Assembly: GCF_000286355.1 (NCBI RefSeq)
Contig: NZ_AJXN01000008.1
Location: forward strand, 1-41,888
Length of the DNA: 41,888 bases
Direction: 5' to 3'
Origin: Kocuria atrinae C3-8
GTDB lineage: Bacteria > Actinomycetota > Actinomycetes > Actinomycetales > Micrococcaceae
Shown here: piece after piece, positions 2,073 to 3,714 of the stretch
Position numbering within the stretch: position 1 is the first letter of the stretch
How the letters are laid out: every line of letters begins with the position of its first letter
The notes under the pieces: model-generated
The model's database searches: none
What the model saw: the letters and a program-made list of their open reading frames with translations, nothing else
What the model was told of the DNA's origin: nothing
Made by a program: the position numbers and the translations under genes

Positions 2073-2955
2073 TTAGTGGCGGTGGGTGTCGACGCCCAGG
2101 CCAGCGAGCAGCGTCAGGCGCATTCGGCCCAGTTGTTCGTCGCTGCGGTTACGCGGGCGGTCGCCGGGCACCGTGAAGACATGCGCGATCGACGCCGCCG
2201 TCTCGCGCGGCTTGCGGCCCAGCACGACGATACGGTCGGCCAGCGGAAGTGCCTCGTCCACATCGTGGGTCACGAGCAGGACTGTGGTGGGGTGGGCTTC
2301 GTGGACCTGCAGGAGGAGATCCTGCATCTTCAAGCGGGTCAAGGCATCGAGTGCGCCGAAGGGCTCATCGAGGAGCAACACACCTGGGCGCCGGGCCAAC
2401 GCCCGAGCAAGGGAGGTGCGCTGCGCCATGCCGCCGGAAACCTCACGCGGGCGCAAATGAGCGAAGTCAGCGAGCTCCACCAATTCCAGCAGTCTCTCGA
2501 CGCGCTCCTGGGCCTCTGCTTTGGGAGTGCCCTGCGGCAAGCCGAGCTCCACGTTCTTGTGGATGTTCTGCCAGGGGAGGAGGCGCGGTTCTTGGAAGGC
2601 GACGGCGCAGCGATCGTCGATTCCGTTCACGGGCGTTCCGTCGATCAGAACGGTTCCCTGGGTGGGGGGCATCCAGTCCCGACGCCGCTCGCAGCAACGT
2701 GGACTTGCCGGAGCCACTGGGGCCGAGGATGGCCAGAACTTCACCGGGAACGACGTCCAGGGTGATGTCTTTCAACACAACATGGGGCTCGTTGCTGTTC
2801 TTACCCGGGAAAGCCCGGCAGACGTTGTCGAAGCGCACGGACAGCGCTTGTGAGGTGTTGTTCTGTGTGCGGTGGTTCCGCGGCTCCGTGATCGAATCAG
2901 AGGCGGCTTCATCCGCTTCTTCCGCGCGAACGGACGTGCTGGCATCAAGAGACAT
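2073..2955 (-). CDS. ssuB: ABC transporter ATP-binding protein, sulfonate type (SsuB-like), frameshifted
   Basis: This is the cytoplasmic ATPase that powers the importer. The first frame (2955 to about 2665) carries Walker [10 protein letters not shown]. The second frame (about 2665 to 2073) carries the Q-loop (F-Q-E-P), the signature V-S-G-G-M-A-Q-R, Walker B L-L-L-D-E-P and the H-loop (V-T-H-D). The frames join at a run of six G on the plus strand (2664-2669). Removing one base gives 293 aa with G-L-D-A-P-T-Q-G across the junction; adding two gives 294 aa. The ATG at 2955 has a GGAG ribosome site that overlaps the 3' strand of helix P1 of the riboswitch-like leader, so translation is probably controlled by ligand. 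It is the first gene of the ssuB-ssuA-ssuC operon. I think the frameshift is an artefact. Confidence 0.8.
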
Positions 2956-2965
2956 GGTGTAATCA

Positions 2966-3052
2966 CTCCATCGGTCCTGGCGGTAGCACCTTGCATAAAG
3001 CCGGTTGCTGCGGCGTCACAGATCCAGGTCTCTCGGCCGCTCGGGATGGTCG
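2966..3052 (-). promoter_or_regulatory. SAM riboswitch-like leader (SAM-I/SAM-IV superfamily core)
   Basis: Read on the minus strand, the 5' leader of ssuB has the S-box core. P1 pairs CCATC (3049-3045) with GATGG (2972-2968). P2 pairs GCGGC (3040-3036) with GCCGC (3014-3010) and encloses kink-turn-like GA dinucleotides. GCAACC lies at 3008-3003 and AAGGTGCTA at about 2992-2984. The P2 loop CCTGG (3028-3024) can form the expected pseudoknot with CCAGG (2980-2976). No P4 hairpin is seen between CCAGG and P1, so the subclass is open, and a missing base cannot be excluded here. The Shine-Dalgarno GGAG (2969-2966) shares two Gs with P1, which suggests that bound SAM hides the ribosome site and shuts off the sulfur importer. 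Identification is by motif only. Confidence 0.8.
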
Positions 3053-3162: not shown

Positions 3163-3714
3163 TTATTTCACGGCCCGCAGGTTCGGAGTCTCTTCCTCAA
3201 CGTTGACCCCCTGGGAGTACGTGAGGTGCCCTCCCAGGAACCCGCCCACCGTCATCACGCCCAAGCCGGCCAACCCGAGCACTTTGCCAACGGTGTGGTG
3301 TCCGGTCATTCGAGCAATGAGGGATCCCGAGTAGGTCAGCACGGTCACGTCCATGGCCGCCGCGTGGATGAATCCGACGCGAGACGCGGCGCCCTTGGTG
3401 CTCTGCCAGTCATGTAGACCGGTTGCTGCCGTGGGAATCGCACTGAGCACCCCGGCACCCACCAGGATGGTCGAAGCGCCCGCCAGTTCTTCGCCACCCA
3501 GAACATCGAGGAGTGCGGACATGCTCCACGCGCCGATAGGAATGTCGGTGAGCATCGGATGCAGCGGATGACCCAGGAAGTCCCCGCTCAGTGCCTTCTT
3601 GACGAGTGGTTGTTCCGTGACCGGTCCAACGTTCGTCTTCAGGAAATCGATCACGGAGTCCAATGAGTGGGCTTCTTCGATCCGAGTTGTGACCTGCTGA
3701 AATGCCTTGTTCAC
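3163..3714 (-). CDS. DUF2231 family membrane protein
   Basis: This 183-aa integral membrane protein has unknown function. A soluble N-terminus of about 45 residues is followed by H-P-L-H-P-M-L-T-D-I-P, the conserved opening of DUF2231, and about four hydrophobic segments with several histidines (H-D-W near 103, I-H-A near 117, G-H-H near 138). Such proteins are often linked to redox or heme-like membrane functions, but that is not shown here. The GTG start at 3714 is supported by a strong AGGAGG six bases upstream. A candidate -10 box TAGAGT lies on the minus strand at 3806-3811, giving a leader of roughly 85 nt. It appears monocistronic and diverges from the YciI-type gene across a long non-coding gap. 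Confidence 0.8.
   Translation of the reverse strand: MNKAFQQVTTRIEEAHSLDSVIDFLKTNVGPVTEQPLVKKALSGDFLGHPLHPMLTDIPIGAWSMSALLDVLGGEELAGASTILVGAGVLSAIPTAATGLHDWQSTKGAASRVGFIHAAAMDVTVLTYSGSLIARMTGHHTVGKVLGLAGLGVMTVGGFLGGHLTYSQGVNVEEETPNLRAVK

Follow-up and report, generated by a model that had tools for sequence, protein, structure and literature searches.

Gene Content of the Locus

The window analysed here, the whole stretch of 41,888 nucleotides from Kocuria atrinae C3-8, carries on its minus strand the genes of an ABC importer, ssuBAC, and, directly ahead of ssuB, an 88-nt leader RNA (Table 1). The family of this importer had been called ambiguous in a preliminary description of the DNA. It is less so than this suggests, since the binding protein scores above the curated TIGR01728 (SsuA_fam) threshold, although neither the permease nor the ATPase reaches an equivalog cut-off (NCBIfam SsuC, 190.8 vs. 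347, for the window permease; SsuB, 191.9 vs. 395, for the Kocuria carniphila counterpart of the ATPase). The SsuA of the closest genome (G001) and the window SsuA share 96% identity. In K. carniphila, the ssuB counterpart is one intact ORF of 290 aa. Since further genes of the source assembly (L001, L003) likewise appear truncated or interrupted in frame, the split of ssuB in the window is likely an assembly error.

A gene for a DUF2231 membrane protein is found upstream of the leader on the same strand (window 3163–3714). At the K. carniphila locus (L327), a scan of six ORFs lying past ssuC and acs gave no match to ssuD; glgC and the gene for aminopeptidase N are located downstream there.

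Table 1. Features of the ssuBAC locus (window coordinates) and SAM-IV elements of the source genome.
Feature	Position	Strand	Basis or remark
ssuC-like permease	41–901	−	PF00528; best NCBIfam model SsuC
ssuA, sulfonate-type substrate-binding lipoprotein	898–1968	−	TIGR01728 202.9 bits, cut-off 163.5
ssuB-like ABC ATPase, frameshifted in this assembly	2073–2955	−	ORFs 2467–2955 and 2073–2744
ssuB start codon ATG	2953–2955	−	12 nt past P1, 10 nt past GGAG
SAM-I (S-box) aptamer, P4-less	2965–3052	−	RF00162 46.5 bits; 88-nt RNA
P1 5' strand CCAUC	3045–3049	−	pairs with 2972–2968; sequence
P2a 5' strand GCGGC	3036–3040	−	pairs with 3014–3010
P2b 5' strand GAG, above kink turn	3030–3032	−	pairs with 3023–3021
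PK-1 pseudoknot 5' strand CCUGG, in L2	3024–3028	−	pairs with 2980–2976
P2b 3' strand AUC	3021–3023	−	pair counts, 84-row alignment
P2a 3' strand GCCGC	3010–3014	−	pair counts, 84-row alignment
P3 hairpin, AGCAACC ... GGUGCU	2985–3009	−	RF00162 alignment
GCAACC core	3008–3003	−	sequence
Core motif AAGGTGCTA	2992–2984	−	sequence
12-nt P3-to-P1 joining segment (canonical SAM-I P4 position)	2973–2984	−	RF00162 alignment without P4
PK-1 pseudoknot 3' strand CCAGG, in P3–P1 joining segment	2976–2980	−	5 pairs in window
P1 3' strand GAUGG	2968–2972	−	last two G are the start of GGAG; sequence
GGAG Shine-Dalgarno-like site, 2-base overlap with P1	2966–2969	−	sequence
SAM-IV elements L006–L010	contigs C51, C171, C17, C35, C84		82–107 bits
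Marginal SAM-IV element L011	contig C10		38.4 bits

The Leader RNA of ssuB

The leader was matched by the Rfam SAM-I model (RF00162) at 46.5 bits, above the cut-off of 44.4 bits and with an E-value of 1.2 × 10−7 over the window and 4227 Rfam families; within the window it is the sole Rfam match above cut-off. The covariance-model check proposed earlier for this leader has therefore come out in favour of SAM-I. A spaced pattern of 22 fixed bases, derived from these leaders, occurs once in the window and in none of 100 shuffles, and the lineage model R1, which was built from the 84 rows of the alignment A1 described below (some of them ssu leaders) and counts the window sequence among its training set, scores 90.7 bits at 3052–2964 of the minus strand.

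The RF00162 alignment contains all of the SAM-I core elements, namely P1, the kink-turn P2, and P3 with GCAACC/GGUGC. The preliminary description had placed a P1, a P2 with GA pairs, GCAACC, AAGGTGCTA and a possible CCTGG/CCAGG pseudoknot on the minus strand in front of ssuB, and each of these was found there, as was the GATGG strand of P1 running into GGAG (2972–2966). In the window leader, the GA nucleotides of the kink turn separate P2a from P2b, the latter with one mismatch (G3030 × A3023), and P1 consists of 5 pairs only, the three outer pairs of RF00162 not being formed. The 18 model positions around P4 shrink to 2.

The SAM contacts that the available part of PMC3764141 gives for the structure 2GIS (A6, U7, A87, U88, G11, A12, C44, A45, U57 and G58) have identical letters in the window leader, the mapping having been done by eye and covering the positions mappable in that way. 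Among the letters which that source gives as conserved around the SAM-I ligand, the one exception noticed in this mapping is the J3/4 adenine A62, which takes part in a base triple in 2GIS and is C in the window. Judged from its alignment, the window RNA is a P4-less SAM-I variant rather than canonical SAM-I, P4 being a usual architectural element of SAM-I which the Rfam cut-off does not demand.

Distribution of the P4-less Layout

The preliminary description had pointed out that a P4 hairpin is lacking, unlike in standard SAM-I, and the RF00162 alignment bears this out; yet it is no oddity of a single leader, as P4 is regularly absent in the genus and often so across Actinomycetota. In the genus, RF00162 gave 86 matches in 25 of the 27 genomes, and P4 is missing from all 86, the stretch from GGTGC to GATGG being too short for it (80 matches of standard length, four one base longer, and two extending past P1). 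Eight of the 86 matches score under the Rfam cut-off, so that cut-off-based annotation misses some of these RNAs.

A text pattern for the P4-less layout was found in at least 117 stretches in named genomes. Among the matches listed, the titles of 80 are nearly all from Actinomycetota, with Micrococcales, Actinomyces, Lentzea, Amycolatopsis, Nocardia, Rhodococcus, Kineococcus and others represented. The outsiders Lautropia and Anaerolineae were rejected as chance matches. Three pattern matches, L140, L166 and L205, lack the rest of the aptamer; they were taken as chance and removed before alignment.

Across the phylum, RF00162 matches were present in 145 of 296 genomes. Sixty of these S-boxes (the 30 best scoring and 30 picked by hand) were sorted by the distance from GGTGC to the end of the match: it is at least 30 bases, as expected with P4, in 50 of them, and 19–20 bases, without P4, in the other 10. 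These 10 carry a canonical P2 (GAGGGAC...GGCCC), unlike the Kocuria type, and the P4-less layout thus comes in two sequence forms. The second form was seen in other actinobacterial families (L287, L289, L290, L291, L292, L294, L295, L297, L299, L300) with the same 12-nt P3–P1 layout as in the Kocuria type. Taken together, the P4-less form looks like a lineage-wide variant of SAM-I.

Covariation

Alignment A1 comprises 84 rows of P4-less relatives, thinned from 234 text-pattern matches. The pattern itself fixes GCAACC, GGTGCT, GCC and GATGG, which partly accounts for the fact that P3, the P1 3' strand and two bases of the pseudoknot do not vary in A1. Standard pairs fill 99.4% of the 2015 cells, compared to 96.5% in shuffles, seven pairs show changes on both sides (3.0 in shuffles), and pairing falls to 27–54% when the partners are slid. 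Both-side changes were found in three of the five pairs of pseudoknot PK-1, where 98.8% of the cells are paired, in two of the five pairs of P2a and in two of the three pairs of P2b. As for P1, none of the 84 rows has a non-standard pair, and both-side changes were sought without success among these rows, whose selection had fixed the P1 3' strand; P3, partly fixed in the same way, shows none in A1 either.

Alignment A2, with 21 hand-chosen rows of the two P4-less forms, adds the second form and L106. It has 12 pairs with both-side changes, as compared to 7.0 in shuffles, and three of the six pairs of P1 are among those that changed on both sides. Pseudoknot pairing is down to 87.4% in A2 because one pair is out of register in the second form.

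Association with the Importer and Other S-boxes of the Genus

Sixteen genomes of the genus have a window-type SsuA, and in every one of them the Rfam model alone gave an RF00162 match upstream of its gene, on the same strand. Model R1 extended the comparison to 45 SsuA loci in the genus and family (the 16 of the genus and 29 further best family matches, out of 67 matching genomes), and the leader was present at 43 of them. One of the two exceptions (L353) starts 576 bases before SsuA, too short to show a leader, and the other (L350) is a real miss. Relatives keeping the transporter thus keep the leader as well, with covariation in P2 and the pseudoknot and, in the wider set, in P1; the case that the preliminary description had named as refuting, a transporter kept without covariation in these elements, did not arise. 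GGAG is formed in each of the 43 ssu leaders by an AG placed directly after GATGG, and 42 of the leaders have, 6–13 nt past P1, a start codon that opens a frame of 150 codons or more; for L348, no such frame was found. Some genera have ssu leaders with a P3 longer by 70–80 nt (L336, L337, L338, L343, L344, L345, L347, L349 and L351; matches of 163–175 nt) and an unchanged P1/GGAG end.

Other S-boxes of the genus, for which single examples were scanned, precede genes for methionine synthase-like, O-acetylhomoserine sulfhydrylase, methylenetetrahydrofolate reductase, SfnB-like and acetate-CoA ligase proteins, while the gene downstream of L025 gave no family match. With the exception of acetate-CoA ligase, these genes fit a methionine and sulfur regulon.

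The acs-like leaders L002, L023 and L043 differ in their start sites: the sole ATG that opens the long frame belongs to the 3' strand of P1 and is closely preceded by AGGAG in the pseudoknot strand, and the alternative start is a TTG two nt past P1. At L021, L053, L072 and similar S-boxes of the genus, the start codon lies about 50–120 nt past P1, and the genus therefore probably has a second kind of expression platform.

Proposed Mechanism and Alternatives

Based on the sequence, the leader RNA very probably senses S-adenosylmethionine (SAM). It is likely that it functions as a compact P4-less SAM-I riboswitch, which would bind SAM and, when SAM is plentiful, repress ssuBAC at the level of translation. 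As in SAM-I, the binding site would lie between P1 and P3, and SAM would lock the 5-pair P1; the closed P1 would hide the first half of GGAG in GAUGG, and the 30S subunit would be shut out. Without SAM, the short P1 would open and the ribosome could bind directly, so neither a separate terminator nor an anti-sequestering hairpin would be needed. Given that the start codon follows P1 at a distance of just 12 nt, that no terminator-like site was found between the aptamer and ssuB, and that half of GGAG belongs to P1, competition between a SAM-stabilised P1 and the 30S subunit would be the simplest mechanism, and SAM-dependent occlusion of the ribosome site appears to be the best one.

A consensus scan found no promoter-like site upstream of the leader, and the single-strand stability of the leader is not unusual (z 0.01). 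When the leader was folded together with the first codons, without pseudoknot or ligand, the aptamer helices came out 5.7–6.7 kcal/mol above the unconstrained ensemble, and the fold favoured by the computation has the aptamer paired to the region of the start codon. Thermodynamic single-strand folding thus did not pick the aptamer fold and lends it no support.

A SAM-I element acting mainly on transcription, in which the SAM-stabilised P1 would block ribosome loading and Rho would then terminate the untranslated mRNA, or a more distant terminator would act, with the mRNA level as the main output, is an unlikely explanation. The S-boxes whose start codons lie 50–120 nt past P1 indicate that other platforms exist in the genus, but the short distance from P1 to the ssuB start, without a terminator-like site in between, and the GGAG overlap kept throughout the ssu leaders argue against such a platform here.

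It is even harder to see the leader as a decayed S-box which no longer binds SAM and is kept by its proximity to ssuB, and we regard this as very improbable. The RF00162 score barely above cut-off, the P2b mismatch, the changed J3/4 adenine and the folding that does not favour the aptamer could be taken as signs of decay. However, the low score reflects the missing P4 of the lineage (canonical SAM-I forms of the phylum reach up to 93.7 bits), the letters of the ligand site are intact, and the leader is retained at 43 of the 45 SsuA loci.

Finally, that the leader RNA belongs to SAM-IV or SAM-I/IV instead of SAM-I is hardly credible and was rejected: P4 is missing, as it is in SAM-IV according to the available part of PMC6890682, and the source genome has real SAM-IV elements, but the site gave no SAM-IV (RF00634) match with E-values up to 10, SAM-I/IV (RF01725) scores 23.4 bits there against a cut-off of 41.1, a kink-turn P2 and PK-1 are present, and the stretch from P1 to the start codon, 12 nt, seems too short for P5/PK-2.

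In the source genome, RF00634 gave 10 matches with E-values up to 10, none of them at the ssuB leader. Six are over the cut-off of 38, five of them clearly so and one marginally (Table 1), and five SAM-I elements are found alongside them. By eye, the ORFs that follow the SAM-IV elements look like metY, metF, and genes for a MetQ-type lipoprotein and an MFS transporter.

Comparison with Known SAM Riboswitches

As summarized in the available part of PMC6890682, SAM-I has P4, SAM-IV lacks P4 but has P5 and PK-2, and SAM-I/IV lacks the split P2 and PK-1. The window RNA shares with SAM-I (RF00162) P1, the kink-turn P2, the pseudoknot between L2 and J3/4, P3 and the GCAACC and GGUGC core, and differs from it by the missing P4, the 5-pair P1 and the half of the ribosome site carried by P1. 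With SAM-IV (RF00634) it has in common the absence of P4, PK-1 and the shared core, whereas SAM-IV, as the same source has it, possesses P5, PK-2 and a 4-nt turn in P2. SAM-I/IV (RF01725) is of the same clan and has the same binding core, but the available parts of PMC2864571 and PMC6890682 describe it as lacking the P2 internal loop and PK-1, respectively, both of which are present in the window. The window RNA combines the split P2 and PK-1 of SAM-I with the absence of P4 seen in SAM-IV.

SAM control of ssu operons in Bacillota and base stems overlapping start sites in Actinobacteria are already in print. The available text of PMC4342826 reports a SAM riboswitch before ssuACB in Bacillus methanolicus, which is similar to the present case in its position upstream of a sulfonate-uptake operon and different in being a Bacillota element, and that of PMC12452182 reports SAM riboswitches before ssu-type operons in Bacillota more widely. 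As far as its available part goes, PMC1262725 (citing Vitreschak 2004) states that the base stems of actinobacterial riboswitches overlap the translation start, and that the genomes examined at that time had yielded no regulatory RNA upstream of methionine operons; like the window leader, these riboswitches have a closing stem over the initiation region and no extra hairpin, but the statement concerns riboswitches in general. The Xanthomonas SAM-I treated in the accessible part of PMC7270179 likewise acts on translation, but it possesses P4, and its expression platform is a separate one with hairpins that sequester the SD. In a literature search that was incomplete, which makes the novelty uncertain, no description of a P4-less SAM-I with split P2 and PK-1 was found.

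Implications

The SAM clan is the standard example of different scaffolds carrying the same binding core. Within it, the P4-less S-boxes may constitute a distinct, so far undescribed subclass that keeps the SAM-I core, the kink turn and PK-1 and lacks both P4 and P5/PK-2; this proposal is tentative, and we give it slightly less than even weight. Within Actinomycetota the subclass would include two or more sequence types, possibly of separate origin; one of the types would serve as its own expression platform, with half of the ribosome site in P1 and, in a few acs leaders, the start codon inside P1 as well. A form that is widespread in nature yet does without the stabilising fourth element would reveal how small a scaffold suffices for the core.

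As small RNAs, the P4-less leaders lend themselves to testing, and the same five base pairs would serve both binding and regulation. The Rfam model scores such RNAs near its cut-off; the variant model R1 gives 88–98 bits to the five SAM-I elements of the source genome, training sequences included. For the family, the leader would link sulfonate uptake to SAM status, and this biological role is amenable to testing.
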